DNA of 35,824 nucleotides from a virus, in IMG/VR virus record IMGVR_UViG_3300022562_001114, positions 1 to 35,824 of that record. The stretch is one strand, 5' to 3'. The notes below the pieces were generated by a model that saw only the letters and a list, made by a program, of their open reading frames with translations, did no database searches and had not been told where the DNA came from. Shown here piece after piece: positions 1 through 29,646 of the stretch (positions within the stretch are counted from its first letter, which is position 1; each line of letters opens with the position of its first letter). A program made the position numbers and the translations under genes.

Positions 1-190
1 CATCGCCAGGAATGGCGCCCGGGTACTGACGAGCCATCTCCTGGTGCGCCCGCTCCTCAAACGCCAAGCGGACCTCAGGGAACGAGCACGCTTCCGGTGA
101 CGCGAGGACCTGCACGTAGCACTCGTCCTCACCGAGACGCCCGGATAGGACGTACCTCCGCAACAAGATGGGAGCAGCGTCCTCGCTCAC
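1..190 (-). CDS. Hypothetical protein, partial (cut by left window edge)
   Basis: Reads from a GTG at 190 leftward off the window with no stop, 63 codons visible. The GTG overlaps the stop of the upstream gene in a GTGA arrangement, with a GGAGG about 8 bases before it, which supports this start. The visible protein begins VSEDAAPILLRRYVLSG and has an acidic and aromatic mix without a motif I recognise. It is the most downstream visible member of a chain of very small minus-strand genes. Function unknown. Confidence 0.65.
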   Translation of the reverse strand, partial: MSEDAAPILLRRYVLSGRLGEDECYVQVLASPEACSFPEVRLAFEERAHQEMARQYPGAIPGD

Positions 191-306
191 TTCGCGTCCT
201 CCGTTCCGGGGAGCGGGCCGGCGTCCTGCTCGTCATGCATCTGACGGATGGTGTCCAGGATCTCCTCGACCGGCTGCGGCTCGTGGTCCGCCTTCCTCCA
301 GCCCAT
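187..306 (-). CDS. Small hypothetical protein, 39 aa
   Basis: ATG at 306, TGA overlapping the next start. The product starts MGWRKADHEPQPVEEILDTI and is acidic towards the C-terminus. A GGGAAG lies a few bases upstream, overlapping the end of the previous gene. Evidence that it is real is tight packing: 2 bases from the previous stop and a 4-base overlap with the next start. No recognisable domain; one short amphipathic helix (residues about 13-26) is plausible. Function unknown. Confidence 0.55.
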   Translation of the reverse strand: MGWRKADHEPQPVEEILDTIRQMHDEQDAGPLPGTEDAK

Positions 307-308
307 AA

Positions 309-401
309 CTACTTCCCGCCCTTCTGCGTCTCGTGCCGCTTCTGCTCGCTCTTCAGGTAGTCGCGGAGTTCGCGTTCCGCCTGGTCGCTGGTGTCGCCCA
401 T
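309..401 (-). CDS. Small hypothetical protein, 30 aa
   Basis: ATG at 401 preceded by GAGGAG inside the end of the previous gene. The protein is highly charged (begins MGDTSDQAERELRDYLKSEQ) and would form a single helix rich in Glu, Lys and Arg. It lies 2 bases after the preceding stop and 2 bases before the following start. Too short for a family call. Function unknown. Confidence 0.5.
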   Translation of the reverse strand: MGDTSDQAERELRDYLKSEQKRHETQKGGK

Positions 402-403
402 GG

Positions 404-526
404 TCAGTGCTCCTCGTGGCTGTCAGCAGGCTGAGTCGTGCCCGCGGATCCGTCGCTGTCGCCAGCGTCGTTGGTCATGTGATCGGAGTGGTTGTAGTTC
501 CGGTGGTCGTCGTGTTCACGCGCCAT
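404..526 (-). CDS. Small His/Asp-rich protein, 40 aa
   Basis: ATG at 526 overlaps the preceding TGA by one base (TGATG), and a strong AAGGAGGA lies about 8 bases upstream, so this start is well supported. The protein is unusually rich in His, Asp, Asn and Ser (starts MAREHDDHRNYNHSDHMTND) and nearly without hydrophobic residues, so it is probably disordered, possibly metal-binding. That function is a guess from composition only. Longer reading upstream in the same frame gives an Arg/Pro-rich shadow of the neighbouring gene and was discarded. Confidence 0.6.
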   Translation of the reverse strand: MAREHDDHRNYNHSDHMTNDAGDSDGSAGTTQPADSHEEH

Positions 527-666
527 CACGCGTCCTCCTTCTTGGGCGTTCCCGGGACCGGCTTGGGGTCCTGCTTGACCCAGCCGCCATGGGAGCCGCA
601 GTAGTCGGTCTCGTGACCCTTCAGCCGCGGGTCGCCTGGCGTCGGGCGGGGCTGCTTCAGCACCAT
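526..666 (-). CDS. Small hypothetical protein, 46 aa
   Basis: ATG at 666 overlaps the preceding stop by one base and its own TGA overlaps the next ATG by one base: translational coupling on both sides. The protein begins MVLKQPRPTPGDPRLKGHET, is rich in Pro, Lys and Gly, and contains a short DYCGSHGGW stretch. No family recognised. The tight couplings in the chain argue for a co-translated operon. Confidence 0.6.
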   Translation of the reverse strand: MVLKQPRPTPGDPRLKGHETDYCGSHGGWVKQDPKPVPGTPKKEDA

Positions 667-746
667 CAGACCGCACCCCCACACTCGGTGCAGCGCCACG
701 TGCCGTCAGCGTCCTGCCGGATCATCGGGTGGTCACAGGAGCTCAT
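666..746 (-). CDS. Zinc-knuckle mini-protein, 26 aa
   Basis: ATG at 746 overlaps the preceding stop in an ATGA arrangement; GGGGAG lies about 8 bases upstream. The product has a CxH pair near the N-terminus (CDH, residues 4-6) and a CxxC pair (CTEC, residues 19-22), a minimal four-ligand zinc-binding layout of the kind found in tiny actinophage proteins. The metal binding is inferred from the ligand pattern. It could bind nucleic acid or a host protein; nothing in the context decides. Confidence 0.6.
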   Translation of the reverse strand: MSSCDHPMIRQDADGTWRCTECGGAV

Positions 747-988
747 ACGGCGGTCTCCCCGTGGGCACGGTGTCGGCACTCTCGGACTGCTGCGGTGATG
801 CGGCGGACCTGCTCGCGGTTGATGCCGGTCGTCTTGACGATGTCGACCTGGAGGACGCCGGCTTCGAGGTCGGCGACGATCGCGTGGTCGCGTTCCTTGC
901 GGGCGGCGTGGAGGGCGGCTTCGACGTTGCGGAGGTTGGTGACGGCGATGATGAGTCGTTCGGATGGGGGTTGTCTCATACCACTCAT
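743..988 (-). CDS. Helix-turn-helix protein, 81 aa, first gene of the minus-strand cassette
   Basis: The protein has a helical N-terminal half and, at residues about 38-70, a segment (DLEAGVLQVDIVKTTGINRE) that fits a helix-turn-helix of the sigma-region-4 / Trp-repressor type: alternation of hydrophobic residues, TGI turn, then a basic recognition helix (REQVRRITAAVRE). It is the promoter-proximal gene of the minus-strand chain, so a regulatory role for this cassette or the divergent one is reasonable but inferred. Start at 988 is chosen over a methionine three codons later; neither has a clear ribosome binding site. Its stop overlaps the next gene in ATGA. Confidence 0.65.
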   Translation of the reverse strand: MSGMRQPPSERLIIAVTNLRNVEAALHAARKERDHAIVADLEAGVLQVDIVKTTGINREQVRRITAAVRECRHRAHGETAV

Positions 989-1032
989 GGTCGCATGCTG
1001 GGGGGTGCCGAGTCTAGTCGGCCGACCGATGG

Positions 1033-1062
1033 TTGACATGCATCCCGGAGGTGGCATACAGT
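1033..1062 (+). promoter_or_regulatory. Candidate sigma70-type promoter
   Basis: TTGACA at 1033-1038, 18 bases, TACAGT at 1057-1062. It sits in the divergent gap between the minus-strand cassette (start 988) and the plus-strand cassette (start 1096), giving a leader of roughly 25 bases that holds a GAAGGA ribosome binding site. The -35 matches consensus exactly; the -10 matches at the key T, A and T positions. Confidence 0.65.
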
Positions 1063-1095
1063 GGTCTCAACGGAACGCCACCGAAGGAACCCAAC

Positions 1096-1455
1096 ATGAT
1101 CCACGCCAACCGCACCCGCCGCGCCACCCTCAAGACCCGCGCCAACCAGAACCGCGCCACCCGCAAGGCCACCCGCGCCGTCAACACCGGCCGCCCCCAG
1201 ACCGCCCGCACCCACCTCACCGCCGCCGGCCTCACCGACACCACCGCCCGCCGCTACGCCCCCGCCTTCAGCCGCGGCCTCACCGCCGACGACGTCACCA
1301 CCACCCGCATCAAGCTCAAGGGCCGCGCCCGCAAGACCGTCCAGGCCAAGCTCTACACCCTCACCACTTTCACGGCCCGCCTCGCCACCTACCGCCCCAA
1401 GGACAAGACCGCCGCCGCCCTCTTCGCCCGCGCCGCCCACACCCTCGCCGCCTAG
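1096..1455 (+). CDS. Very basic hypothetical protein, 119 aa
   Basis: ATG at 1096 follows GAAGGAA by about 9 bases and lies just after the candidate promoter. The first 60 residues are full of Arg, Lys, Thr, Asn and Ala (starts MIHANRTRRATLKTRANQNR); the second half has a short helical domain ending in ARAAHTLAA. The charge suggests nucleic-acid binding, but no fold is recognised. Almost every codon ends in C, more extreme than in the structural genes, which is compatible with strong expression. First gene of a five-gene plus-strand operon. Upstream extension of the frame to 1033 would run through the promoter and was rejected. Confidence 0.7.
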   Translation: MIHANRTRRATLKTRANQNRATRKATRAVNTGRPQTARTHLTAAGLTDTTARRYAPAFSRGLTADDVTTTRIKLKGRARKTVQAKLYTLTTFTARLATYRPKDKTAAALFARAAHTLAA

Positions 1456-1463
1456 GAGAAGCC

Positions 1464-1643
1464 ATGGCCCGCATGATCGGACGTACCTGCCCCACCGGCC
1501 CCGGCGGACGCGACTGCAACTGCTGCGGCCAGCCCCCCGGCCACGACCGCAAGACCTACCGACGCCGCGCCAAGCGCTCCGAGCGCCAGCAGTGGAAGCG
1601 CACCACCAACACCTACATCGTCACCGTCTACCCCAACGCCTAA
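1464..1643 (+). CDS. Small Cys-rich basic protein, 59 aa
   Basis: ATG at 1464 with AGGAG overlapping the previous stop codon. Cysteines cluster at residues 9 and 18-21 (TCP and CNCCGQP), a possible metal site, followed by a strongly basic stretch (KTYRRRAKRSERQQWKR) and a short beta-like tail. Could be a nucleic-acid-binding protein; not recognised. A much longer reading of this frame from 729 gives Pro/His/Arg low-complexity sequence antisense to or shadowing other genes and was discarded. Confidence 0.65.
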   Translation: MARMIGRTCPTGPGGRDCNCCGQPPGHDRKTYRRRAKRSERQQWKRTTNTYIVTVYPNA

Positions 1644-1652
1644 GGAGCCACC

Positions 1653-1859
1653 ATGACCTTCAACATGGACCAGCGCGTCCGCACCACCGTCAACGTCGAA
1701 AGCATGTGGCCCAACGGCCAGGACGTCCCCGCCGGCTCTCTCGGCACCGTCGTCGCACTGCCCGTCGGTCTCGAATCCACCACCTACGGCATCCTCATCG
1801 ACACCGACCGCGACCAGATGCCCATGACCTACGACGCCAACGAGATCACCCCCGCCTAG
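1653..1859 (+). CDS. Small beta-rich protein, 68 aa, paralogue of the gene at 2310
   Basis: ATG at 1653 with AAGGAG about 6 bases upstream. The protein reads as a compact SH3-like barrel: QRVRTTVNV near residue 7, PAGSLGTVVAL in the middle, TYGILIDTDRDQMP later, and NEITPA at the end. The same order (QRVTIT, PAGTPGTITA, TYGVVLDTDPKHLP, EDITPA) recurs in the gene at 2310, so the two are duplicates separated by one gene. This layout resembles small barrels that read nucleic acid or bind proteins, but function is unknown. Confidence 0.75.
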   Translation: MTFNMDQRVRTTVNVESMWPNGQDVPAGSLGTVVALPVGLESTTYGILIDTDRDQMPMTYDANEITPA

Positions 1860-1867
1860 GAGCAGCC

Positions 1868-2299
1868 ATGACCATCCGGCCTCCGGCACCCCACCCCTGC
1901 GCATCCTGTCCCTACCGGCGCGACGTCACCTCCGGTATCTGGGACGCCAGTGAGTACGCCAAGCTGCCGGCCTATGACCTGCCGACCTACGCCCAACCAC
2001 CGCGCCTGTTCCTGTGTCACCAACACGACCGCGACGACGACCGCACGCGGGTGTGCGCGGGCTGGTCTGGATGCCACGACGGAGACCACCTGCTTGCGCT
2101 GCGCGTAGCGGTGTCGTCGAGGCATATCACGGTGGAGACAGCCAACAGCATCCGCGAGTACGTTTCGCCATCCCCGCTGTTCGCCTCCGGCGCCGAGGCT
2201 GCCGAGCACGGGATACGGGAGATCTGTGCCCCGTCCCCGAACGCCCACGCGGCTATCAGCAAGATCACACGCAACCGCAGCGACATCACTCCCAACTAA
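1868..2299 (+). CDS. DUF6283-like Cys/His protein, 143 aa
   Basis: ATG at 1868 with AGGAG overlapping the previous stop. The N-terminus PCASCPYRRDVTSGIWDASE and later conserved LFLCHQ and RVCAGW/CHDGDH segments match my memory of actinophage proteins in the DUF6283 family (name given with moderate confidence). Visible possible metal ligands: C12, C15, then CHQH near residue 57 and C/H at about 67-74. The role is not known. It lies between the two paralogous barrel genes. The C-terminal third is helical and less conserved looking. Confidence 0.7.
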   Translation: MTIRPPAPHPCASCPYRRDVTSGIWDASEYAKLPAYDLPTYAQPPRLFLCHQHDRDDDRTRVCAGWSGCHDGDHLLALRVAVSSRHITVETANSIREYVSPSPLFASGAEAAEHGIREICAPSPNAHAAISKITRNRSDITPN

Positions 2300-2309
2300 G
2301 GAGCTCACC

Positions 2310-2519
2310 ATGACCTACCACCCCGGCCAGCGCGTCACCATCACCCGCGACATCAGCTTCCCTGAAGACGGCTACTCCGCCCCCGCGGGCACCCCCGGCA
2401 CGATCACCGCCCACAACACCTACCCGGCCGAGAGCGCGGGCACCTACGGCGTCGTCCTCGACACCGACCCCAAGCACCTCCCCACCCTCTGCTGGCCCGA
2501 AGACATCACCCCTGCCTGA
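2310..2519 (+). CDS. Small beta-rich protein, 69 aa, paralogue of the gene at 1653
   Basis: ATG at 2310 with AAGGAG about 7 bases upstream, overlapping the preceding stop. Residue order and spacing follow the 68-residue protein encoded at 1653 (QRVTIT near residue 8, PAGTPGTITA, TYGVVLDTD, EDITPA at the C-terminus), so this is a duplicated SH3-like small barrel. Last gene of the cassette, followed directly by a GC-rich hairpin. Function unknown. Confidence 0.75.
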   Translation: MTYHPGQRVTITRDISFPEDGYSAPAGTPGTITAHNTYPAESAGTYGVVLDTDPKHLPTLCWPEDITPA

Positions 2520-2542
2520 CGCCTCAGCCTTCCCGCAGCCCC

Positions 2543-2564
2543 GCCCCGGACACCGGAGCGGGGC
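2543..2564 (+). terminator. Hairpin, probable terminator
   Basis: GCCCCG at 2543-2548 pairs with CGGGGC at 2559-2564 across a 10-base loop, 24 bases after the stop at 2519. There is no T-run, which is common in high-GC actinobacterial terminators. It would separate the small-gene cassette from the packaging genes. Confidence 0.5.
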
Positions 2565-2579
2565 GCACCCATGTCCCGG

Positions 2580-2585
2580 CACAAT
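2580..2585 (+). promoter_or_regulatory. -10-like element of a possible leaderless promoter
   Basis: CACAAT at 2580-2585 lies 6 bases before the ATG at 2592, with no Shine-Dalgarno sequence between. The same spacing recurs at 20796, 26368, 30638 and 35669. No good -35 is seen, so this one is weaker. Confidence 0.35.
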
Positions 2586-2591
2586 CGGATC

Positions 2592-3143
2592 ATGCCCACC
2601 TACCCGCCACGCTGCCCCGCCACCAACCTCAACGGCCGGCCCTGCTCCCAACCCGCCGGCTCCCGCACCAACCACCGCGGATACGGCCACTGCGCATGGC
2701 ACAAAGGCGCACAGAAGAACATCGAGGAGACATGGGCCATGGCACAAGAACTCGCAGCCGAGAAGGGCATCACCCCGCAGGAAGTCCTACTCGACCTCGT
2801 CCGCGCCGCCGCACGCCGCGCCGCCTGGACAGAGACCATCGTCATCGACGGCATGCGCTCCCACATCGAGGCCGGTGGCGACCCCATGAAGCCACCCACC
2901 TCCCTCGACCGCTGGCTGAAGCAATCCCGCGAAGAACGAGCACTCGCAGCCAAGACCGCCAAGACCGCCGTAGACGCCGGCGTCATGGCAGCACTCGAAC
3001 GCCGCCTCGACATTGAGGGCGAGCTCGTCGCCACCGTCATCGGCGGAGTCCTCGACTCCCTCGGCCTCGACCAGGATCAGCGACTTACCGCGATGACGAC
3101 AGCACAGAAACTCCTACTCGAAGCGGGCGGCACGCCAGAATGA
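2592..3143 (+). CDS. Probable terminase small subunit with N-terminal zinc finger
   Basis: The 183-residue protein begins with a Cys/His cluster (RCPATNLNGRPC, then a Cys and His about 20 residues on), a zinc-finger layout I associate with small terminase subunits of actinophages, followed by a helical domain with a coiled-coil-like stretch (EERALAAKTAKTAVDAGVMA). Small terminases recognise the packaging site and stimulate the large ATPase. The call rests on this layout and position at the head of the packaging genes. Start: ATG 2592 is preferred because of the -10-like element; an ATG at 2571 would add 7 residues and also lacks a good ribosome binding site. Its end overlaps the next gene in ATGA. 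Confidence 0.65.
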   Translation: MPTYPPRCPATNLNGRPCSQPAGSRTNHRGYGHCAWHKGAQKNIEETWAMAQELAAEKGITPQEVLLDLVRAAARRAAWTETIVIDGMRSHIEAGGDPMKPPTSLDRWLKQSREERALAAKTAKTAVDAGVMAALERRLDIEGELVATVIGGVLDSLGLDQDQRLTAMTTAQKLLLEAGGTPE

Positions 3144-3832
3144 GCCACATGACCACCCCCAGCCCCTACCGCGTGGCTGTGATCCCCACACGCGACCGGC
3201 ATGCCATGCTCCACGACTGCATTCGGTCCGTCGTGAAACAGGTCGACCACGTCATCATCGTCGACAACCAGTCCGAGCCGCCGATCCTCAACGAGGACCT
3301 GCCGTGGGGCTGCTCCGTCGTCACCGCACCGATGGACCCCCCGAACATCAGCGCACTGTGGAACATCGGCTTGCAGCTGGCCGACGCGCTCGCCCTGCAG
3401 AACTTCGCCCCGCACTGGGACATCGCTGTCCTCAACTCCGACGTGATCGTCCCCGACGGGTGGGTCAACACGCTGTCGACCGCGATGCGGTCCACCACCG
3501 CGGTGCTCGCCTACCCCGACCAGTGCGGCGGGAAGGCACAGATCCTCCATACCCAGGCTGGCCCCATCGACCTGCGGCAAAGGATCACCGGCTACGCGTA
3601 CATGCTCCGCGGCGAGACCGGCCTCCGCCTCGACGAGACCATGGCCTGGTGGTTCGGAGACGACGACATCGACTGGGAAGCCCGCCAGCGAGGCGGCGCG
3701 CTCCTCGTCCCCGGCATCCCCGTCGAGCACCGCGAACCCAACGTGTCCACCAACGCCCGCCCCGAACTCGCCGAACAAACCGGCCGAGACCGAGCCACCT
3801 TCCAACGCAAGTGGGGACGCACCCCATGGTGA
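3140..3832 (+). CDS. Glycosyltransferase, GT2-like (GT-A fold)
   Basis: 230 residues. The N-terminus VAVIPTRDRHAMLHDCIRSV with VIIVDNQSEPP is the standard nucleotide-sugar-binding start of GT2 enzymes; WDIAVLNSDVIVPDGW (about 93-108) carries the NSD version of the metal-binding DxD; WWFGDDDIDW (about 165-175) is the acceptor-side/catalytic acidic motif typical of rhamnosyltransferase-like GT2 proteins. Expected to transfer a sugar from a nucleotide donor in the cytoplasm; donor and acceptor unknown. Start overlaps the previous stop by 4 bases. First gene of the sugar block between the two terminase genes. Confidence 0.85.
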   Translation: MSHMTTPSPYRVAVIPTRDRHAMLHDCIRSVVKQVDHVIIVDNQSEPPILNEDLPWGCSVVTAPMDPPNISALWNIGLQLADALALQNFAPHWDIAVLNSDVIVPDGWVNTLSTAMRSTTAVLAYPDQCGGKAQILHTQAGPIDLRQRITGYAYMLRGETGLRLDETMAWWFGDDDIDWEARQRGGALLVPGIPVEHREPNVSTNARPELAEQTGRDRATFQRKWGRTPW

Positions 3833-3840
3833 GGAGCAGC

Positions 3841-4656
3841 ATGAGAATCGCAATCACTGGTGGCTTCGGCTTCCTCGGCCACGCAGCGATGCACGCCGGC
3901 CAGAACGAAGGACACGACGTGTTCTCCTTCGACCGGGCCCACGGCAACGACGTCCTCGGCGACCTCACCGCCCTGGAAGGCGCAGACGCGGTCATCCACC
4001 TCGCCGGCATGCTCGGCACCAGCGAGCTGTTCGACACCCCCGAAGCAGCCGTACACGCCAACGTCATCGGCACCCTGAGGATCCTGCAGTGGTGCCGGGC
4101 CAACAACGCCGCCTACGTCGGCATCACCATGCCCCCCGTCTTCCCGTCGGTGTACACCGCGACGAAGGTGTGCGCCGACCGCCTCGCCACCGCATGGCAC
4201 CACGCCTACGGCGTCCGCGTCTCCCACGTCCGCGCGTTCAACGCCTACGGCCCCGGACAGAAATGGGGCCCCGGCCACCCACAGAAGATCCTCCCCACGT
4301 TCGCTCGCGCCGCATGGGAGAACCGCCCCCTCCCCATCTGGGGCGACGGATCCCAGACGATGGACCTCGTCCACGCCGACGACGTCGGCCGCATGCTCAT
4401 CGAGGCCACCAAGCACGGCGACGACGTCACCTTCGACGCCGGCACCGGCACCGCCATCACCGTCAACGACTTCGCCAAGTACGTCCTCGGACTGACGAAC
4501 TCCACGGGCGGCGTCGAACGCATGCCGATGCGCCCGGGAGAGAAGCCCACACAGATCGTCGCGCAGGGCGAAGGCTGGGACCGCCTCGACTGGAAGCCCG
4601 AACACCACTGGGGCCGGATCGCCGAAGCCATCGAGTGGTACCGCAACCCCTCATGA
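3841..4656 (+). CDS. NAD-dependent nucleotide-sugar epimerase/dehydratase (extended SDR)
   Basis: 271 residues. ITGGFGFLG at the N-terminus is the GxxGxxG NAD-binding loop; AVIHLAGM is the usual second Rossmann signature; VYTATK holds the YxxxK catalytic pair; RAFNAYGPGQ and the later DLVHADDVGRM are typical substrate-side and late motifs of the GalE/RmlB-type extended SDR family. The stretch between the catalytic Ser/Thr position and the Tyr is short (about 10 residues rather than about 25), so it belongs to a compact subclass. It probably makes or interconverts the sugar used by the adjacent transferases. ATG 3841 has GAGGAG 8 bases upstream. Confidence 0.85.
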   Translation: MRIAITGGFGFLGHAAMHAGQNEGHDVFSFDRAHGNDVLGDLTALEGADAVIHLAGMLGTSELFDTPEAAVHANVIGTLRILQWCRANNAAYVGITMPPVFPSVYTATKVCADRLATAWHHAYGVRVSHVRAFNAYGPGQKWGPGHPQKILPTFARAAWENRPLPIWGDGSQTMDLVHADDVGRMLIEATKHGDDVTFDAGTGTAITVNDFAKYVLGLTNSTGGVERMPMRPGEKPTQIVAQGEGWDRLDWKPEHHWGRIAEAIEWYRNPS

Positions 4657-5321
4657 CCCGCATCACAATCCTGTCCGCGTGCTATGACCGGTACGACACC
4701 ATCAAGCCGGTCATGCCGCAGCACGGCGCCGACGTCGACTGGATCCTCATCCACGACGACATGCACCTAGACGAGGCTGACGCCCCCGGCTGGCGCCTCG
4801 TCTACGAGCCGCGCCCCGGTGTCCACCCCAACCGCGCTGCCAAGCACCCCAAGTACGAGCCGTGGAACTACACCGACACCGACCTGTCCATCTGGGTCGA
4901 CGCCTCATTCCGCGTCGTTTCCCCATACTTCGCCGTCCAAGCCACGGAACAACTGACCGACGAGCAGCCCATCGCCCAGTTCGTCCACCCGTGGCGCACC
5001 TGCATCTACACCGAAGCCACCGCGTCGGCGCCGATCCCGAAGTACGCCAGCGAACCGGTACTGGAACAGGCTGCTGCGTACCGCAAGCACGGCCACCCCG
5101 AGGACTGGGGACTCTGGGCAACCGGCGTCATCGCCCGTCGGCACACCGAACCCGTCCGCAAGATGGGCTCGTTCTGGCTCGTCGAAACCTACCGCTGGTC
5201 GTACCAAGACCAGATCTCCCACCCCTACGCCCTGCGCGAGCACCAGCTCCGCCCGCAGGCACTCCCCGGCATGCACCTGGCGAACAGCTGGCTGCAGTAC
5301 GAAGGAAGCGAACGACACTGA
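4653..5321 (+). CDS. DUF616-like glycosyltransferase
   Basis: 222 residues, start overlapping the previous stop in ATGA. ILSACYDRYDTIKPV, DWILIHDD, then a PNRAAKHPKYEPWNY segment and LSIWVDASFRV are the ordered motifs I associate with the DUF616 (TOD1/MUCI70-like) glycosyltransferases: an N-terminal nucleotide-sugar fold, a conserved R-x-K-H-P region and a W-x-D in place of DxD. Family placement is from memory; donor and acceptor unknown. Its position between an epimerase and a methyltransferase suggests a shared glycan product. Confidence 0.7.
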   Translation: MTRITILSACYDRYDTIKPVMPQHGADVDWILIHDDMHLDEADAPGWRLVYEPRPGVHPNRAAKHPKYEPWNYTDTDLSIWVDASFRVVSPYFAVQATEQLTDEQPIAQFVHPWRTCIYTEATASAPIPKYASEPVLEQAAAYRKHGHPEDWGLWATGVIARRHTEPVRKMGSFWLVETYRWSYQDQISHPYALREHQLRPQALPGMHLANSWLQYEGSERH

Positions 5322-5761
5322 TGACCAGCCTCGAAATCGGCGGTGGCCACCTCACCCAGCCCGGGTGGATCAACATCGACCCCACCCACGGCATCGGCGA
5401 ATGGAAGCGCCCCGCCCAGGCAACCCCCTGGCCTACGCCAACCGACAGCATCGACGCCATCCGCGCATCCCACGTCATGGAGCACATCCCCGCAGGACAG
5501 CCCCGCATCGACGTCATGAACGAGGCGCACCGCGTCCTCAAGCCCGGCGGCATCTTCGAGATCCGCGTGCCCAACGCCCTGTCCGGAACCTGGCACGCCT
5601 TCGCCGACCCGACACACGTCAGCTTCTGGTGCCTCGCCTCGTTCCACTACTTCGACGGCTCCTTCGCCGCCAACGCCGACTACGGCATTCGGTACTGGAC
5701 CACCCTGGAACTCCTCATCCAGGGCGACAACGAGATCCTCTGGAAGGGAACTCCGCGATGA
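5321..5761 (+). CDS. SAM-dependent methyltransferase (class I, type-11-like)
   Basis: 146 residues, ATG overlapping the previous TGA by one base. LEIGGGHLTQPGWINIDPTH is motif I plus the acidic end of beta-2; IRASHVMEHIP is the motif with His commonly seen in sugar- and lipid-modifying members; HRVLKPGGIFEIRVPN is motif III. The C-terminal part is shorter than usual but the Rossmann core is complete. It may methylate a sugar or nucleotide-sugar made by this block; the substrate is inferred only from context. Confidence 0.8.
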   Translation: MTSLEIGGGHLTQPGWINIDPTHGIGEWKRPAQATPWPTPTDSIDAIRASHVMEHIPAGQPRIDVMNEAHRVLKPGGIFEIRVPNALSGTWHAFADPTHVSFWCLASFHYFDGSFAANADYGIRYWTTLELLIQGDNEILWKGTPR

Positions 5762-6015
5762 GCAGACCTGGTTATGGCGAAGAGCCACTGATCCATTCGG
5801 CGATCACTGACGTGCTCCCCGAAGACCATCCGCTAGCGCACGAGAACACCGGCTGTGATAAGCCGGGATGCTCAGAGCTGCTGCATTACTGCATCAACGA
5901 GAACATGCAGACCTGGGTGGAAGCTCACAACGGCAACTACTGCCTTCCCTGTTTCGCTGCACTGGATGACGCGGAAGGAATCATCGGATGGTCGGGGTCA
6001 CGAGACCAGGCGTGA
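5758..6015 (+). CDS. Small Cys-rich protein, 85 aa
   Basis: ATG 5758 overlaps the previous stop (ATGA). Visible possible zinc ligands: CDKPGCSELLHYC (residues about 33-45) and CLPCF (about 62-66), an actinophage-style small zinc-binding layout. No catalytic motif. It sits between a methyltransferase and a glycosyltransferase gene, with overlaps on both sides, so it is co-expressed with the sugar block. Its last 28 bases overlap the next gene. Function unknown. Confidence 0.7.
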   Translation: MSRPGYGEEPLIHSAITDVLPEDHPLAHENTGCDKPGCSELLHYCINENMQTWVEAHNGNYCLPCFAALDDAEGIIGWSGSRDQA

Positions 6016-6611
6016 CCGTGGTGACGCCCTTCCATGAGGCACGCCGCCGCAACGGCATGCTCGACCGGGCCGTCGCTTCCGTCCGCGCCCAGACCGTGCC
6101 CGTCGAGCACATCCTCGCCGAGGACGTGCACCGCATGGGCGCAGCCATCACCCGGCATCACGGGCTGCACCTCGTCGAGACGGAGTGGACAGCGTTCCTC
6201 GACTCCGACGACGAGATGGACCCCGACCACATCGAGCAGCTCCTCGCCTGCGCGAAGGACACCGGCGCCGACTACGTCTACCCGTGGTTCCGCGTCGTCG
6301 GCGGCACCGACCCATTTCCCATGTTCTTCGGACGGCCCTTCGACCCCGACTGCCCGAACAGCACGACGATCACCATCCTGGTGCGCACGGGCATCGCGAA
6401 GCAGGTCGGGTTCTACCGCGACCCCACCACACAGGTAAGCGGAGAGGACTACGCGTTCACCCTCGGCTGCATCAAGCTCGGCGCGCAGATCGTGCACCAC
6501 CCGGCACGAACCTGGACCTGGCACCACCACGGACACAACTCCGCCGGCCGACCAGACTGGGGCGACGCCGCAATAGGAACGACCGGAAGGAACCACCGTC
6601 GTCACCGATGA
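5988..6611 (+). CDS. Glycosyltransferase, GT2 family
   Basis: 207 residues. VTVVTPFHEARRRNGMLDRA is a GT2 N-terminus, WTAFLDSDDEMDPDHI holds the DxD metal/nucleotide-binding motif (D72-D75), and SGEDYAFTLGC gives the later acidic ED motif. Length is short but the GT-A core is complete. ATG 5988 follows GGAAGGAA by a good distance; a GTG at 6012 (GTGA overlap with the previous stop) is the alternative start and would only trim 8 residues. Last gene of the sugar block, ending 10 bases before the large terminase. Confidence 0.85.
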   Translation: MVGVTRPGVTVVTPFHEARRRNGMLDRAVASVRAQTVPVEHILAEDVHRMGAAITRHHGLHLVETEWTAFLDSDDEMDPDHIEQLLACAKDTGADYVYPWFRVVGGTDPFPMFFGRPFDPDCPNSTTITILVRTGIAKQVGFYRDPTTQVSGEDYAFTLGCIKLGAQIVHHPARTWTWHHHGHNSAGRPDWGDAAIGTTGRNHRRHR

Positions 6612-6621
6612 CAATCGGAAG

Positions 6622-8856
6622 ATGACCACAGCAGACAGGGCAGCAGTCGCCGCACGCGCCGCTGCCCTGCTCTCTGCCCAACTCCAACCACGCTGGCGAC
6701 CACTCCCACACCAGACGCCACCACCAGGAGACTGGTACGGATGGCTACTGCTCGCCGGCCGCGGCGCCGGAAAGACGGACGCATGTGCGGAGTACATCGC
6801 CCGCCACGTGGCAGGCCCGCCGTGTCTACCTGGCCCTGTGCCGCATTGGATCGGCATCATCGCCCCCACCCAAGGCGACGCCGTCACCGCATGCGTCTCC
6901 GGCCCATCAGGCATCAAAGCCCACGACCCCACCGCTGTCGGACCGATCACCACCGCAGGCGGCACCGTAGTCCGATGGCCCAACGGATCACAGGCCAAGC
7001 TCTACGGCGCCAACAACCCCGAGGACGTCGAACGCCTCCGAGCCGGCGGAAACACCTGTGTTGCCGAAGGCACCCTCGTGCGCACCGAGCATGGCCCTCA
7101 ACCTGTTGAGTCCATCGAGATCGGCGATCGCGTGTGGACCCGGAATGGGCTGCGTCGGGTGCTGCGTGTCTGGGACAACGGAATCAAGGAGGTTCGACGG
7201 TACGAGCACGAAGCAGGGCACGTATGGCTGACCCCCGACCATGAGATCTGGACCACAAGAGGCTGGATTCAAGCTCGCTTCGTTAAGCCAATTGATACAG
7301 TTACTACATGGAATCACCTGCAAAGTTCGTCATATACGACGGTGTCCGATGGTACGAGCGAGAGAGCGGCTACTACTCGAACAGTAGAAGAGGGCTGCTC
7401 CACCGATGGGTGTGGAGGCTGGAGCGAGGGGACATTCCGAACGAGATGCAGGTGCACCACCTCAACCATGACCGAGGCGACAACAGGATCGAGAATCTGG
7501 ATCTCGTCAGCAGAACCGAGCACTTGCGCATCCATGCCAGAGACTCTGAGTGGCATCGAAAGGGGGCTCAGGCCGCGTGGGCCAATGCAGAGTGGCGCGA
7601 GTTCACATGCCAACGATGCGGCGGGGTTGGACGCACGCGCGCTCCCCGGGAAGCCAAGTACTGCTCAGCCGCCTGCCGGGACCATGCGTCACGAGCACGG
7701 GAGCAACGGGTGTGTAGCGTGTGCGGCGCTAAGTTCGAGTGCCCCTCCAGAAATCCAACCCGCACCTGTTCGCGCCGGTGCACTTCGGTCTACGCCTACC
7801 AGCAGCGCGGCAAGGGTGTACGACCTGACAGTTGAGCACGACCACGAGTTCTTCGCTGGCGATCTCCTCGTGTCCAACTGCGTTGCGTGGCTTGAGGAGT
7901 TCGCCGCATGGCGGTACATGCAGGAGTCCTACGACCAGCTCCGCTTCGGCCTGCGCTCCGGGCCGCGCCCGCACTGGGTTGCATCGACCACGCCGAAGCC
8001 CAAGCACCTGCTGAAACGGTTCACGCAGGGCGACTTTCCCAACGTGACTGTGACCACGGCCACCATGTACGACAACCCGCACCTCCCTGCCCACATCAGG
8101 GAGATGCTTGAAGACGCCTATGCCGGAACCGACCTCGGCGAGCAGGAGTTGTACGGTCGGCTGCTCGACGAGATGAAGAACGCCCTGTGGCGGCGCAAGA
8201 ATCTTGCGGCCGGGCGGATCCCCGCCATGGATCTTCCGGACCTGATGCGTACCACAGTGGGTGTCGACCCGTCCGGCGGCGCCGGGGAACAGGGCATCGT
8301 CGTCACCTCGAAGACTGGACTGCTGCTGCCCGGTGTGCTTCCCGGTCCGGAGTTGGACGACGAGGAACGTACCGCGGTGAAGGTACTGCGGCCGCAGCCT
8401 CATGGCATCGTCCTCGATGACCGCTCCTGCCAGCTGTCTCCTGAGGGGTGGGGGGAACGCGCTGTGCGGGCCGCTATCGACTGGGAAGCAGATGACATCT
8501 GCGTGGAGGTCAACTACGGGGGGGACCAGGCCATTGCCGTCATCCGCACGGCTATGGAGAAGATCGGCGTCGACATCCCAGTTCGCAAGGTGCGGGCTAC
8601 ACAGGGCAAGGCGATCCGGGCGCAGCCGGTCGCTGCATTGTCGGCGCAGGGACGGTGGCATCACGCTGGCACGTTTCCCGAGCTGGAGGAACAGATGTGC
8701 ACCTGGTATCCGGAGCTTGGGTGGTCGCCTGACCGGCTGGACGGCATGGTGTGGGGGCCGTGGCATATGAAGCTGGTGGGCACGGTGACGGGCGGCCGTG
8801 GGTCGATGGGCTCGGCGATGGCTGGAAGACCGATCACTGGCGGGCGCGTACGGTGA
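6622..8856 (+). CDS. Terminase large subunit, interrupted in frame by an intein
   Basis: 744 residues translated; removing the intein (residues 146-419) leaves about 470, the normal size. LLLAGRGAGKT (about 45-55) is Walker A. The intein sits right before CVAWLEEFAAW, the Walker B/catalytic Glu segment. ASTTPKP is the coupling motif. The C-terminal RNase-H-like nuclease shows TVGVDPSGG, GIVLDDRS and VEVNYGGDQA acidic positions. It is the motor that packages and cuts phage DNA at the portal. ATG 6622 is used although GGAAG lies only a base or so upstream; no better in-frame start exists after the previous gene. Protein splicing is required for function. Confidence 0.92.
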   Translation: MTTADRAAVAARAAALLSAQLQPRWRPLPHQTPPPGDWYGWLLLAGRGAGKTDACAEYIARHVAGPPCLPGPVPHWIGIIAPTQGDAVTACVSGPSGIKAHDPTAVGPITTAGGTVVRWPNGSQAKLYGANNPEDVERLRAGGNTCVAEGTLVRTEHGPQPVESIEIGDRVWTRNGLRRVLRVWDNGIKEVRRYEHEAGHVWLTPDHEIWTTRGWIQARFVKPIDTVTTWNHLQSSSYTTVSDGTSERAATTRTVEEGCSTDGCGGWSEGTFRTRCRCTTSTMTEATTGSRIWISSAEPSTCASMPETLSGIERGLRPRGPMQSGASSHANDAAGLDARALPGKPSTAQPPAGTMRHEHGSNGCVACAALSSSAPPEIQPAPVRAGALRSTPTSSAARVYDLTVEHDHEFFAGDLLVSNCVAWLEEFAAWRYMQESYDQLRFGLRSGPRPHWVASTTPKPKHLLKRFTQGDFPNVTVTTATMYDNPHLPAHIREMLEDAYAGTDLGEQELYGRLLDEMKNALWRRKNLAAGRIPAMDLPDLMRTTVGVDPSGGAGEQGIVVTSKTGLLLPGVLPGPELDDEERTAVKVLRPQPHGIVLDDRSCQLSPEGWGERAVRAAIDWEADDICVEVNYGGDQAIAVIRTAMEKIGVDIPVRKVRATQGKAIRAQPVAALSAQGRWHHAGTFPELEEQMCTWYPELGWSPDRLDGMVWGPWHMKLVGTVTGGRGSMGSAMAGRPITGGRVR
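7057..7878 (+). other. Intein within the large terminase (274 aa)
   Basis: Starts with Cys (TGT at 7057) and ends with Asn (AAC at 7876-7878) followed by Cys+1. Block A: CVAEGTLVRTEHGPQPVESI and GDRVWTRNG. Block B: GHVWLTPDHEIWT with the TxxH motif. Blocks F/G: VYDLTVEHDHEFFAGDLLVSN. The residue before the terminal Asn is Ser rather than the usual His. The roughly 170 residues between blocks B and F (about 229-400) are Ser/Thr/Arg/Gly-rich and look like an out-of-frame reading of the HNH gene in the same stretch. Insertion point is the conserved ATPase core next to Walker B, a typical intein site. Confidence 0.9.
7308..7835 (+). CDS. HNH homing endonuclease nested out of frame inside the intein
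   Basis: 175 residues, one base back (-1) from the terminase/intein frame. The HNH core is complete: LHRWVWRLERGDIPNEMQ, VHHLNHDRGDNRIENLDLV, then RTEHLRIHA. Two zinc ribbons follow: CQRCGG with CSAAC, and CSVCGAKFEC with CSRRC. This is the usual layout of free-standing phage HNH enzymes. A TGA at 7293-7295 closes the frame just upstream, so ATG 7308 is the first start. No Shine-Dalgarno sequence; TACAGT lies 6 bases before the ATG. Codon use (AGA, ATA, CGA) is less GC-biased than that of the surrounding gene, indicating separate acquisition. Its last 30 bases overlap intein block F. Confidence 0.85.
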   Translation: MESPAKFVIYDGVRWYERESGYYSNSRRGLLHRWVWRLERGDIPNEMQVHHLNHDRGDNRIENLDLVSRTEHLRIHARDSEWHRKGAQAAWANAEWREFTCQRCGGVGRTRAPREAKYCSAACRDHASRAREQRVCSVCGAKFECPSRNPTRTCSRRCTSVYAYQQRGKGVRPDS

Positions 8857-9296
8857 TCGTCATGGATTTGTGGCTGCTGCTCGTGCTGATGTCGCTCGCT
8901 GTGTACCGGCTGACGCGGCTGCTCGTCGACGATACGTTCCCTCCTGTCCTGTGGGCGAGGGACCGCATCGTCGGTGGCTGGCGCCCGCTCACACTGAAGG
9001 AGCAGGGCAGCCATACTGCGATGCCCGAGGCCGAGGGCGAGCGAACGCATCACATCGCGTTGGGTCACCTGATGCTGGTGGACGGCGTAGTCAGTCGGTA
9101 TGTGAAGCGAGCTCCGTGGATCCCGCTGTTCTTCGCTGGGCTGTTGTCGTGTCCGTACTGCGCCTCTGGCTGGCTGGCGCTCGCCGTGACCGTCGGGGTG
9201 TGGTGGTGGCTGCCGCTCGCGACGCCGCTGCTCGTGCTGCTGTGGCTCGGCTCGTGGGCGTTGGGCGGGATGCTGGCGGCGCAGGAGTGGTCCTAA
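8853..9296 (+). CDS. DUF1360-like membrane protein
   Basis: 147 residues from GTG 8853, which overlaps the terminase stop in GTGA; ATG 8862 is the alternative. Membrane segments: LLLVLMSLAVYRLTRLL at the N-terminus and two hydrophobic segments at the C-terminus (LALAVTVGVWWWLPLA and PLLVLLWLGSWALGGML). The YRLTRLLVDDTF start, WARDRI and the LLSCPYCASGW Cys pair are the pattern of DUF1360 proteins. In Bacillus the family is linked to sporulation/cell-wall contexts; the phage role is unknown. It ends just before a strong terminator. Confidence 0.75.
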   Translation: MIVMDLWLLLVLMSLAVYRLTRLLVDDTFPPVLWARDRIVGGWRPLTLKEQGSHTAMPEAEGERTHHIALGHLMLVDGVVSRYVKRAPWIPLFFAGLLSCPYCASGWLALAVTVGVWWWLPLATPLLVLLWLGSWALGGMLAAQEWS

Positions 9297-9303
9297 TGCA
9301 CGA

Positions 9304-9330
9304 AACCCCACCGGTGTGTGCGGTGGGGTT
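9304..9330 (+). terminator. Strong terminator hairpin
   Basis: AACCCCACCG (9304-9313) and CGGTGGGGTT (9321-9330) form a perfect 10-bp stem with a 7-base loop, 7 bases after the stop of the membrane-protein gene. Confidence 0.85.
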
Positions 9331-9451
9331 CTAGAGAGGCGCCCTCAGTTCCTCCGTGGGCGAGCGGTCCCGCCTCAGAGCATGTGGTCAGTGTAGCTGT
9401 GGTGTGGAAAGCTGTGCGTAGACGACCGGGATGGCGTACCGGTTGGGTGGA

Positions 9452-9486
9452 GAGGGCCGCTCGCGCTGAATACGCGAGCGGCCCTC
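9452..9486 (+). terminator. Second strong hairpin in the same gap
   Basis: A perfect 14-bp stem: GAGGGCCGCTCGCG (9452-9465) with its complement at 9473-9486, loop of 7, then GGGTCTTTCC. It lies 121 bases after the first terminator and 79 before the portal start. The stretch 9331-9451 between them has no convincing ORF or promoter; a small RNA ending here is possible but unsupported. A further short stem (CGGTA/TACCG) occurs near 9511-9526. Confidence 0.75.
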
Positions 9487-9564
9487 GGGTCTTTCCGGAA
9501 CGATCTTTCCCGGTAGGCGCTTACCGTTCCCGCAGACCAACCCCACGACCTGCGGAGGGCACCC

Positions 9565-17666: not shown

Positions 17667-17825
17667 GTGACTGTCTTGCCGCGGGCGTCGAACTTGCTTG
17701 CTCCGATCTCTACGGATCAGGCGGGGACGACGCCTGCGGCTGCTGTGTGGCTGGTTGCGTGTGGGCCCGTGGTGAAGCCGTCGGTGGAAGCCAGTCGTGT
17801 AAGTGAAACCACCAGCACGGCTTGA
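17667..17825 (+). CDS. Small hypothetical protein, 52 aa
   Basis: GTG 17667 directly follows the stop of the previous gene (TAAGTG), so translation is probably by reinitiation; there is no separate ribosome binding site. The product begins VTVLPRASNLLAPISTDQAG and continues AAAVWLVACGPVVKPSVEA, a short beta-like protein. It fills an otherwise empty 173-base gap between two structural genes, which is the main argument for it being real. Function unknown. Confidence 0.55.
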   Translation: MTVLPRASNLLAPISTDQAGTTPAAAVWLVACGPVVKPSVEASRVSETTSTA

Positions 17826-17839
17826 TTGCGGAGGTATCT

Positions 17840-19015
17840 GTGACGCTGCAGCAGTACAGCAAGCAGTTTTGGTTTCCGAATGGCTCGCCTGCTGTGAACA
17901 TCGAAGCGCAGGTGTTTCTTGAGGATTCCAGCGGGTTTGCGTCGCTGTACACGGACGCGACAGGTACAACACCGCTTGCGAATCCGACGGCCACGGATGG
18001 TAGTGGAACGCTGACGTTCTGGACCGAGTCAGGGCAGTACTGGCTTCACCTGGATTCCGAGTCGTTCCTCATCAATGTGGGCATGTCGGAGACCCAGGCC
18101 ACGTTGTCGACGGGCATCGCTTCAGGCGGACGGATCACCGTCAATGCAGGCAACCCGCTTGCTGTCGATATCAGCGCGGTAGACGGATACGTAGTCGACT
18201 ACCTGGCGGACACGCAAGCACAGCCGGTCATCATTCGAGTCAAGACGGCAGCTCAGACCGTTCCGCTGGATGCTGCGGCACTGTTGCGCACGGCTACATG
18301 GTTCCTGGTGGACTCCACTGGCACGGTCATCCAGCAGGCGTTCCCGCCGGACAACATCCAGCGGCGCACCCATATCGCGATCGGCGCCGCAGCGCAGAAC
18401 GGGGCGCAGATCTTCAGCATCACCCCGAACGCAACGATCCTGGCTCAGCCAGTGAACCAGCTGGCCGACCTGATGGACGGCCTGGGCCCATTCGTGACCA
18501 ACACTCTCGTGGTCACGCCCAATGCCAACCTCACGTTCAACACGAGCTCCACGACCCTCTTCGGCCGTTCGCTCAACCGGTACAGCGGAGGTTCGCTCAC
18601 GAACAACCCGCACAACGTGACGGCCCCGGCCGCTGCCCCGGCGCAGTTCCGGTACATCACGCGGAACGCCACCACGTTCGGTCCGCTGCGCACCACGATC
18701 GATGTGGCGAACTACGACGTAGGCGGTGTGATCACGCCGATTGGCGGAGGAGCGAACACGACCTCCATTCACCGGCTGTGGCTGGCCGGCACTGGCAGCG
18801 CTTCGGATCAGTTCGCTTTCCAGTACGGGCAGAACACCTATTCCAGCCTGTCGGATGCCGTGAACCGTATCGGGCAGGGTGGCTTCACGGTAAACCCCAT
18901 CCTGGCTGGCGCCACAGCGCTTGTGGCATGGATCGCGGTCACCCGGACCGCAACGAATCTGAGCGATCCGGCACAGGCTGCGATCATCTCCGCAGGAAAG
19001 TTCGCGGCCCCGTAG
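17840..19015 (+). CDS. Fibre-like structural protein
   Basis: 391 residues, GTG 17840 with GCGGAGG 7 bases upstream. The first 80 residues follow a pattern common in phage fibres and appendages: short strands, LYTDATGTTPLANPTATDGS, then GTLTFWTESGQYWLHLD. The middle is Ala/Thr/Asn-rich with beta-strand spacing; there are no enzymatic motifs. Placed between tube and neck genes, it may be a head or tail decoration or fibre protein binding host sugars. The precise location in the virion cannot be told from sequence. Confidence 0.65.
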   Translation: MTLQQYSKQFWFPNGSPAVNIEAQVFLEDSSGFASLYTDATGTTPLANPTATDGSGTLTFWTESGQYWLHLDSESFLINVGMSETQATLSTGIASGGRITVNAGNPLAVDISAVDGYVVDYLADTQAQPVIIRVKTAAQTVPLDAAALLRTATWFLVDSTGTVIQQAFPPDNIQRRTHIAIGAAAQNGAQIFSITPNATILAQPVNQLADLMDGLGPFVTNTLVVTPNANLTFNTSSTTLFGRSLNRYSGGSLTNNPHNVTAPAAAPAQFRYITRNATTFGPLRTTIDVANYDVGGVITPIGGGANTTSIHRLWLAGTGSASDQFAFQYGQNTYSSLSDAVNRIGQGGFTVNPILAGATALVAWIAVTRTATNLSDPAQAAIISAGKFAAP

Positions 19016-28367: not shown

Positions 28368-28597
28368 CAAGTCCACTGGATGCGCGGATGCGTGTGGCTG
28401 CAGAGAAGGTCGTGGCCGAGCTCGGCGGCATGGGCAGCGTGGATGTGTCGGGTCTTCAGCAGCAGATCACCGACCTGCACGAGCACCTGCATGCGGCGAC
28501 CACTGCAACCGCTGCGCTGACGTCTCGTGTCGAGGCGCTAGAGGCCGCGGCGAAGGTTCCGGTGCGGGGTGTGCGGCGGAAGACCGACAGCGAGTGA
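28364..28597 (+). CDS. Small coiled-coil protein of the lysis cassette, 77 aa
   Basis: GTG 28364 in a GTGA overlap with the holin gene. Helical throughout; VDVSGLQQQITDLHEHLHAA and ALTSRVEALEAAAK show heptad spacing of Leu/Val, so a coiled coil is likely. No signal peptide or membrane segment, which argues against a spanin. The C-terminus is basic (RGVRRKTDSE). Might be a lysis regulator or a tail-associated protein. Function unknown. Confidence 0.7.
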   Translation: MTSPLDARMRVAAEKVVAELGGMGSVDVSGLQQQITDLHEHLHAATTATAALTSRVEALEAAAKVPVRGVRRKTDSE

Positions 28598-29646
28598 AGG
28601 TCCTTGTCTACCCGTCGGACAGCTTCGGGTGCGGAAGTTTCCGCGCGATCTGGCCCGGTGGGTTGTGCGCGGCGGCCGGGCACGATGTCGAGGTAGTTCG
28701 GTCGCAGGACCGCCGTGTGCGTCTTGTACTTGAGAACGAGGTCGTGAAGGACGTTCTCGTCGAGGCGGATGTGGTGGTACTGCAGCGCGTCACGCACTTC
28801 CGGATGGCGCAGGCTGTGTCCGTCATGCGGGCAAAGGGCGTTGCGGTTGTGGTTGATGTGGATGATGACCTGTCGTCGATCCATCCATCGAACCCCGCAT
28901 GGTCACTGCATCGTCCTGGTCATGGTCCGCATTCGTGGCACAACCTGGCGCAGGCATGTCGAGATGCGACGTTGGTTACGGTGTCAACTCCAGCGCTTCT
29001 TGATGTGTACGCAAAGCATGGCCGCGGGCATGTGCTGCCGAACTACTTGCCGGACATGTACTACGAGCAGTCCCGGCAGGACTCGGATGTCATCGGCTGG
29101 CCTGGTTCGTTTCATTCACATCCGAATGATCCCGAGGCCGTGGGTGGCGCGGTAGCACGGCTCGTGGACGAGGGTGCCACGTTCGTCATGCGTGGTGATC
29201 CGACGGGCGCTGGGAGGGCTTTCGGGCTGGCTGAGGACCCAGTGGGCGGTGGCGTGGCGATCGAGGAATGGCCAGCGTCTGTGGCGTCGCTGGGGGTTGG
29301 GATCGCGCCATTGGCTGATACCAGGTTCAACGCGTGCAAGTCGTGGCTCAAGCCGCTGGAGATGTCCGCGACGGGGGTGCCGTGGGTGGCGTCTCCTCGA
29401 GCGGAGTACAAGCGGCTGCACCGTATGGGCGCCGGCCTGTTGGCCGAACGCCCTCGGGCTTGGTACCGGGAGCTCAAGCGGCTGCGTGAGTCTGCTGCGC
29501 TGCGGCTTGAGCTGAGTGAGGCGGGTCGGGAAGTTTCCGAGCAGCTCAGGTTGGCTGACAACGCATGGCGGTGGATCGATGCCTGGGGCCGCGCGTTCGA
29601 GCTTGAGCGTGCTATGCCGCGGTCTGGGGTAGTAGCTGGGCGTTGA
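28594..29646 (+). CDS. Glycosyltransferase, GT4-like (GT-B fold)
   Basis: 350 residues, GTG 28594 in a GTGA overlap. VLVYPSDSFGCGSFRAIWPG is a GT-B N-terminal strand-loop; VVVDVDDDLSSIHPSNPAW and TLVTVSTPALLDVYAKHG are typical of phage-type GT4 relatives; the C-terminal lobe has GVGIAPLADTRFNACKSWLK with the PLxDTxFNxxKS sugar-nucleotide binding motif and GVPWVASPRAEYKRL. Longer reading of the frame upstream shadows the previous gene and was rejected. Substrate unknown. It adds a fourth transferase to the phage, away from the other three, and its 3' end overlaps the convergent WhiB gene by 35 bases. Confidence 0.8.
   Translation: MKVLVYPSDSFGCGSFRAIWPGGLCAAAGHDVEVVRSQDRRVRLVLENEVVKDVLVEADVVVLQRVTHFRMAQAVSVMRAKGVAVVVDVDDDLSSIHPSNPAWSLHRPGHGPHSWHNLAQACRDATLVTVSTPALLDVYAKHGRGHVLPNYLPDMYYEQSRQDSDVIGWPGSFHSHPNDPEAVGGAVARLVDEGATFVMRGDPTGAGRAFGLAEDPVGGGVAIEEWPASVASLGVGIAPLADTRFNACKSWLKPLEMSATGVPWVASPRAEYKRLHRMGAGLLAERPRAWYRELKRLRESAALRLELSEAGREVSEQLRLADNAWRWIDAWGRAFELERAMPRSGVVAGR

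Follow-up and report, generated by a model that had tools for sequence, protein, structure and literature searches.

The virus record IMGVR_UViG_3300022562_001114 from IMG/VR, analysed here over its entire length of 35,824 bases (the window), contains a run of sugar-related genes located between the genes for the small (terS) and large (terL) terminase subunits. An earlier note, made from the letters of the window, had described six genes at this place as one unit. That gene set was understated: as judged by comparison with related sequences, it recurs in actinobacterial phages as a glycan module, to which a distant glycosyltransferase gene also belongs. The genes concerned are listed below with their family matches and E-values.

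2571..3143, + strand: terS-like gene, upstream border, named by position and size; weak match to phrog_3678 (unknown function), 8.5e-7
3140..3832, + strand: GT2a, family-2 glycosyltransferase, 230 residues; PF00535, 2.3e-6
3841..4656, + strand: epi, short extended short-chain dehydrogenase/reductase (SDR), nucleoside diphosphate (NDP)-sugar epimerase-like, 271 residues; PF01370, 5e-34
4653..5321, + strand: TOD1, putative TOD1/MUCI70 (DUF616) glycosyltransferase with a predicted GT-A fold, 222 residues; PF04765, 7.6e-9
5321..5761, + strand: MT, small S-adenosylmethionine-dependent methyltransferase-like protein, 146 residues; Methyltransf_23 and Methyltransf_11, 1.4e-7 and 6.1e-7
5758..6015, + strand: small Cys open reading frame (ORF), outside the conserved module; no Pfam or PHROG match
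5988..6611, + strand: GT2b, family-2 glycosyltransferase with a DSDD motif, 207 residues; PF00535, 1.1e-11, and phrog_14775, 1.6e-45
6622..8856, + strand: terL, downstream border, with an intein inside; Terminase_6N, 2e-19, and Terminase_6C, 1.2e-6
about 28594..29646, + strand: GT4-like glycosyltransferase gene (GT4) behind the amidase (lysin) gene; phrog_7162, 5e-31, no Pfam match

The six ORFs between terS and terL were confirmed, and the family assignments proposed for five of them were reproduced with Pfam and PHROGs; no module protein matches an NCBIfam family above its cut-off. Homologues of the terS-like gene sit at the same place in relatives, and we infer that GT4 starts at the GTG at 28594. 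Overlaps of 4 bases join terS to GT2a, epi to TOD1 and MT to the Cys ORF, TOD1 and MT overlap by 1 base, and the Cys ORF extends 28 bases into GT2b if the latter starts at ATG 5988, or 4 bases if it starts at GTG 6012. The 8-base gap between GT2a and epi had been given as the only interruption of this series, and the 10-base gap between GT2b and terL had gone unmentioned. The view of the block as a unit holds for five of the six genes, which form a conserved module that looks co-transcribed, but not for the Cys ORF. The latter displays a GC content of 0.57 and a third-position GC content of 0.66, versus 0.87-0.90 at third positions in the sugar genes; its homologues are limited to L109 and L126 among the tabulated loci (numbered with the prefix L), and it is probably an insertion and not a part of the module. 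Neither promoter-like nor + strand terminator-like sites were detected in 2200-9600, which is weak evidence since shuffled sequences give 0.8 and 3.1.

The order terS...GT2a-epi-TOD1-MT-GT2b-terL was first seen in 13 distinct IMG/VR contigs by tblastn of the window proteins. The comparison set comprises 82 loci, namely L097-L162 from a viral epimerase scan (best 80 of 450), the bacterial loci L089-L091 and 13 loci picked from other scans; not included are the epimerase-scan loci L005, L092-L096 and L163-L175. The gene order that the earlier note had proposed to seek in other phages, terS...GT2a-epi-TOD1-MT-GT2b...terL, is displayed by 34 of the 82 loci, two of them from Streptomyces assemblies, and in a further four the core stands beside terL with terS not found or cut off. 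The number of independent cases is lowered by near-duplicates (L107/L108/L127 and L112/L113) and by the single contig that carries L126 and L203. As read from these sequences, the conserved gene order is not a product of chance. The pairing of TOD1 with epi was assessed for + strand genes no more than 1.2 kb apart and with an epimerase score of at least 150: a pair was found in 68 of 80 assessable loci, 64 by this rule and four by hand (L124, L134, L137 and L138, whose epi and TOD1 genes overlap); L151, which is cut off, is not counted. No pair was seen in 12 loci, L092-L096, L155 and L162-L167.

The distal GT4 gene, which the count of six had missed, was recovered, with identities of 61-83%, from 26 of the 29 records with a terminase link, and the three records that lack it (L100, L107 and L110) end 3.7-13.1 kb short of its place at the spacing of the window. 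By this sequence evidence, the GT4-like gene belongs to the module as its distal member. In L114 (G020:C1:49025-51226) an interval of about 1.1 kb divides the GT4 gene, whose second part contains a TAG; an intron, an intein or another insertion may be responsible.

The module is also found away from terminase genes. In 14 other loci the searched genes follow the order GT4-GT2a-epi-TOD1-GT2b, where other ORFs may intervene, and in the 82-locus comparison L141 and L146 display the order GT2a-epi-TOD1-GT2b-GT4; L142 and L160 look like duplicates. Clustering of ORFs indicated that 10 of 29 loci devoid of a terminase link share another methyltransferase-like ORF, for which the one representative tested matched Methyltransf_24 (4.6e-11). 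Same-strand tail-like ORFs, identified partly by inspection, precede the block in the loci of this type.

The alignments of GT2a, epi, TOD1, MT and GT2b contain many invariant residues, motif residues among them. Asn99 and Asp101 of the NSD motif are invariant across the GT2a alignment, and MT is 65-88% identical to 13 aligned relatives. TOD1 scores 35.7 bits against PF04765, above the curated cut-off of 21.4. The fold of TOD1 was predicted because no sequence relative turned up in the PDB up to E 1. The AlphaFold2 model (mean pLDDT 90.9) aligns with BoGT6a over 195 residues (VIA Z 13.5, root-mean-square deviation 3.7; Foldseek and VIA-align), with an Indivirus TOD1/MUCI70 protein from BFVD at a TM score of 0.85, both structures being predicted, and with a putative glycosyltransferase of Cellulophaga phage phi18:2 at 0.81. 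A GT-A fold near GT6 is therefore predicted for TOD1. The likeness to the GT6 family, which includes BoGT6a and the ABO transferases, lies in the shared GT-A fold at VIA Z of about 13, whereas sequence identity is just 8-15%. With the PF04765 proteins of plants and viruses TOD1 shares the family profile and the same predicted fold; it is however only 19-22% identical to the four best viral structure matches, and the window gene is tied to GT2 and SDR genes, unlike the distant viral relatives examined. Four TOD1 residues, D83, R115, D186 and Q187, are invariant and could be catalytic. GT6 enzymes are retaining, and we take the D186-Q187 pair to be comparable to that of retaining GT-A enzymes.

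The epimerase-like protein keeps the GxxGxxG and YxxxK motifs, with G7, G10, G13, Y105 and K109 invariant in 17 rows. Residue 96, at the place of the third catalytic Ser/Thr, is Thr or Ser in 15 of the 17 rows, Gly in L015 and Leu in L020. The protein lacks TDE, the active-site motif of dTDP-glucose 4,6-dehydratases (dTDP, deoxythymidine diphosphate). Its AlphaFold2 model (pLDDT 90.6) matches epimerases along the entire chain, with a VIA Z score of 30.8 for 6pmh and of 30.7 for both 7ys8 and 4zrn, many entries being tied; Rv3634c and TM0509 are among the matches at 30.7. It is at least some 40 residues shorter than the epimerase chains that it matches. No likely membrane segment was found in the module proteins or GT4, the best 19-residue hydropathy being 1.25, where the usual threshold for a membrane segment is near 1.6.

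We favour, with a probability of about 0.58, a reading in which the module is expressed late in phage infection and would build a short glycan on a virion protein. The epimerase-like enzyme would act in the cytoplasm during assembly and convert a host NDP-sugar into the form needed; in relatives its substrate is perhaps a dTDP-4-keto-6-deoxy sugar supplied by phage RmlA/RmlB-like enzymes. GT2a, TOD1, GT2b and GT4 would then add sugars successively, with the side chain of some abundant virion protein as the attachment point and capsid, tail tube or fibre as candidate acceptors; the product would be a short oligosaccharide. MT would cap or decorate this oligosaccharide, presumably by methylating a sugar, and the resulting glycan may shield the particle or alter adsorption. 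The reading is favoured by the late-operon position, the lack of likely membrane segments and the absence of a thymidylate-synthase-type gene in 19 relatives. It also draws on the conserved gene order with its distal GT4, on the invariant residues, on the short junctions with terS and terL, on the sugar genes in front of the terminase genes of Streptomyces phages Zuko and KimJongPhill, and on the mycobacteriophage precedent described below. The rest of the window holds head and tail genes of the usual kind, with those for portal, head maturation protease, major head protein and major tail protein, and genes for a tape measure protein and the amidase, the last two named by inspection.

The thymidylate-synthase result bears on DNA as the acceptor, where a glycan carried by a modified base would evade restriction. 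Phage glycosyltransferases acting on DNA are known (PMC12619734), as is arabinosylation in RB69 (PMC6024577). No thymidylate-synthase-family gene was found in any of 19 related records of at least 56 kb, the window not being counted and other base-modifying routes not being covered, whereas nine of 14 control genomes match; this speaks against T4-like glycosylated hydroxymethyl bases. The module, in addition, sits with structural genes in the window and behind tail genes in other phages (tail genes partly identified by inspection), and we regard a DNA target as unlikely.

Several observations weigh against the virion-protein glycan. The earlier note had preferred virion proteins as the target, and these are kept as the most plausible one in view of the late position and conserved module, but the search for an acceptor found none. 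The late proteins of the window match little in 36 non-terminase module loci, compared over about 8 kb on each side such that more could be shared: parts of the tape measure protein match in eight loci, and parts of the 24077-25438 protein in six, WhiB-like hits occur in three, and there is one portal match. The C-terminal part of the 24077-25438 protein (residues about 178-436) is common to six module loci at 28-35% identity and may be a shared virion surface domain. Across residues 81-397, the tail-fibre-like 17822-19015 protein shares 47% identity with a protein of KimJongPhill from the gp15 region, behind the capsid gene; it matches one of 19 records (KimJongPhill), and no match was found in Zuko. 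Beyond the epimerase, the window has no NDP-sugar-making enzyme of its own, and L205 and L210 lack the epimerase itself. Viral contigs that lack the module commonly encode distant DUF616 proteins: among the best 80 of 88 viral DUF616 relatives 63 are distant (31-39% identity), and in ten such loci examined (L024-L033) no other module gene was matched. Finally, like most of its relatives, the window is a metagenome contig that may be incomplete.

The supply of sugars differs among relatives. An RmlB-like gene is present in 22 of the 38 terminase-linked loci and an RmlA-like gene in nine; 12 loci have neither. In L015 the RmlB-like protein matches dTDP-glucose 4,6-dehydratases (PDB 1bxk, 6.5e-39) and keeps TDE and YSASK, and the RmlA-like protein of L007 matches a glucose-1-phosphate thymidylyltransferase (3hl3, 3.3e-54); both remain under the NCBI cut-offs, with 201 versus 365 and 177 versus 361 bits, respectively. 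No RmlA or RmlB match was obtained in the window up to E 1, save epi itself as a distant RmlB match, and the phage would therefore need host NDP-sugars. The suggestion that the set makes a modified sugar thus falls short for the window, where the epimerase-like SDR stands alone and the nucleotidyltransferase and 4,6-dehydratase genes found in relatives are missing.

Variation was also analysed gene by gene in a set made up of the window and 27 selected loci that carry every gene. At a threshold of 55% identity, epi, TOD1, MT and GT2b each stay together as one group, while GT2a splits into three, with 22, 4 and 2 members. Spearman correlations of pairwise identities, which are only indicative since the pairs are related and not independent, range from 0.42 to 0.72 among module genes and from 0.17 to 0.44 between module genes and terL. 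A DUF1360 gene (8751-9296, directly behind terL and overlapping its end), whose protein has one strong hydrophobic segment (19-residue hydropathy 2.24), correlates with module genes at 0.37-0.75 (GT2a 0.75, TOD1 0.60), a result that is unexplained. In L205 and L210 epi is gone from between GT2a and TOD1, and in L205 a methyltransferase-like ORF (4541-5046) stands in its place, which in our own reading of the sequence may be a cassette exchange. Free-standing HNH-like ORFs were noticed by inspection as insertions at sugar-gene junctions, at L003:3663-4307, L007:4656-5192, L011:3751-4446, L013:8055-8636 and L015:4366-4950.

Such variation could be that of ordinary moron cargo, unrelated sugar genes having gathered at a tolerant site with no joint function. 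The site also gathers HNH-like genes and small ORFs, GT2a occurs in three groups, epi is absent from two loci, and L240 and L241 have a methyltransferase and no other module gene. This explanation appears most improbable, as the same set recurs in the 14 loci described above with flanking genes that match the window little, epi and TOD1 are paired in most assessable loci, and module genes correlate better with each other than with terL; the last argument is weakened by the values of the DUF1360 gene. Another, still tentative proposal is that of a portable glycan-coat cassette, which would combine a near-fixed epi-TOD1 pair with exchangeable parts to produce a lineage-specific capsid or tail glycan in actinobacterial phages. 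The exchangeable parts would possibly be the GT2a groups, RmlA/RmlB, the replaced epi, the different methyltransferases and GT4, near or far. If true, the cassette would be the virus counterpart of bacterial serotype loci.

The epimerase profile also finds the block in the assemblies of Streptomyces caniscabiei and Streptomyces sp. 549; Micromonospora sp. CPCC 205371 carries the block with no terminase link, and five further loci contain the epimerase alone. The S. caniscabiei genes from terS to GT4 occupy a single 31-kb stretch (C2:235633-266942), with identities to the window of 71% for the major head protein, 65% for TOD1 and 77% for GT4; no match to the Cys ORF or the 17822-19015 protein was found in this stretch. 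PF04765 occurs once per genome, at the block, in S. caniscabiei, Streptomyces sp. 549 and Micromonospora, and in none of 14 control genomes, and TOD1 is hence not a usual host gene there. Since Streptomyces assemblies carry the block, the host of the window is probably Streptomyces or a near relative. The Streptomyces elements appear prophage-like from their place in contigs of 446 and 290 kb, a large plasmid being the alternative. The block contig of Streptomyces sp. 549 has tyrosine-integrase matches at C56:3929-4447 and 71462-71962, with TOD1 at C56:11040, and S. caniscabiei contig C2 gave no tyrosine-integrase match. An epimerase of the same subfamily (54-55% identity) was observed in the Actinomadura loci L092/L093 (8001-8825), outside any phage block seen, where it lies near a HAD-like ORF by inspection.

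The presence of the element in Streptomyces assemblies is compatible with modification of the host surface, late in infection or in lysogeny, which would block superinfection or free released particles. Temperate-phage glycosyltransferases can alter host serotype, according to PMC12619734. The genes nevertheless belong to a late series on the same strand with short overlaps, with no promoter-like site of their own (a weak point), and no flippase-type partner was seen in the block. In Gtr-type serotype conversion, a membrane flippase and a polytopic transferase are encoded in an operon; the module and GT4 differ in having no likely membrane segment. A host-surface role is accordingly viewed as doubtful. 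The product could also be a free glycan or exopolysaccharide-like layer, or a modified host small molecule, in place of a decorated protein, DNA or wall. The combination of several glycosyltransferases, an NDP-sugar enzyme and a methyltransferase resembles polysaccharide or natural-product tailoring sets, and the two Actinomadura relatives of epi lie outside any phage block seen. The tight link to packaging genes in 34 loci would then have no obvious explanation, and such a product is considered very unlikely.

To our knowledge, only a few phages have been shown to carry glycosylated particle proteins. Mycobacteriophages carry glycans on capsid and tail-tube subunits, as stated in PMC12619734, PMC11256854 and PMC13313380. 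Phage-encoded glycosyltransferases, as in virion-glycosylation systems, are present in the window by sequence family. The closest functional comparison is with the Che8-type system, likewise that of an actinobacteriophage with several phage glycosyltransferases, where a capsid/tail glycan is reported; for the window such a glycan is a proposal. In Che8, however, terS and terL adjoin, the three annotated glycosyltransferase genes (gp108-110) are at the right genome end, and no gene is annotated as SDR or DUF616. Comparison of this 10-kb end with the window proteins matched GT2b only (30.5% over 59 residues, 7e-6). The module may thus work like the Che8 system, of which it is at most a candidate member; that its enzymes hardly resemble those of Che8 in sequence adds to the points held above against a virion-protein glycan.

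The Zukovirus phages Zuko and KimJongPhill are cultured distant relatives that carry part of the module. They encode homologues of GT2a (61-63% identity) and GT2b (57-60%) that flank a methyltransferase in the order GT2b-MT-GT2a, and their terminase genes are immediately preceded by genes for an SDR and a GT4-like protein. The SDR is annotated as UDP-glucose dehydrogenase (UDP, uridine diphosphate) and weakly matches the epimerase profile; the gene beside GT2a is, as we assume from its motif, a 2-oxoglutarate oxygenase. In contrast to the window, the sugar genes are split into two blocks, KimJongPhill has none between terS and terL, and none of the profiles made for TOD1, the epimerase and MT finds a match within the right-end 16 kb. 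The TOD1 profile search of the phage collection returned no match in Zuko or KimJongPhill. Near DNA matches between window positions 1-12000 and named phages are limited to a 146-base stretch in KimJongPhill (two records).

The combination with DUF616 in a phage had been given as one not known to be described. No paper on this gene combination was found in the literature searched, but DUF616 itself already occurs in phages, and Synechococcus phage S-SCSM1 gives a distant sequence match to TOD1. The present analysis describes a pathway of named genes that is larger, conserved and seemingly portable, found in uncultured phages and in Streptomyces assemblies, which would offer a simple bacterial system for finding the DUF616 reaction and would open the questions of sugar, acceptor and purpose.

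The downstream border gene carries a further element, with the following parts.

7057-7878: terL intein, inside terL
7308-7835: HNH ORF, within the intein, in a frame other than that of terL

The same intein site is filled in three of 48 terL loci (L011 and L098, on one contig, and L089) and empty in 45, several of the 48 sharing contigs; L112/L113 display the same intein/HNH layout at a second terL site. A mini-intein considered in the terL of L007 and L016 was ruled out, no insert being present. The nearest report concerns a methylase insertion with an out-of-frame HNH gene in ShiLan, stated not to be an intein in PMC11855218, and a literature search turned up no intein with such an out-of-frame HNH gene. 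Over the HNH stretch, identities are 71, 54 and 55% in the HNH frame and 61, 40 and 45% in the terL frame, and the latter contains no stop, so that both frames are open. After shuffling of the ORF's own synonymous codons, the terL frame stays free of stops in 6.6, 4.4 and 12.9% of trials for the window, L011 and L089, respectively; when codons are resampled according to phage usage, the figures are 23.6, 15.2 and 17.5%. At these rates no single open-frame case is significant. The repetition of the open double frame in these sequences suggests that it is being kept up.

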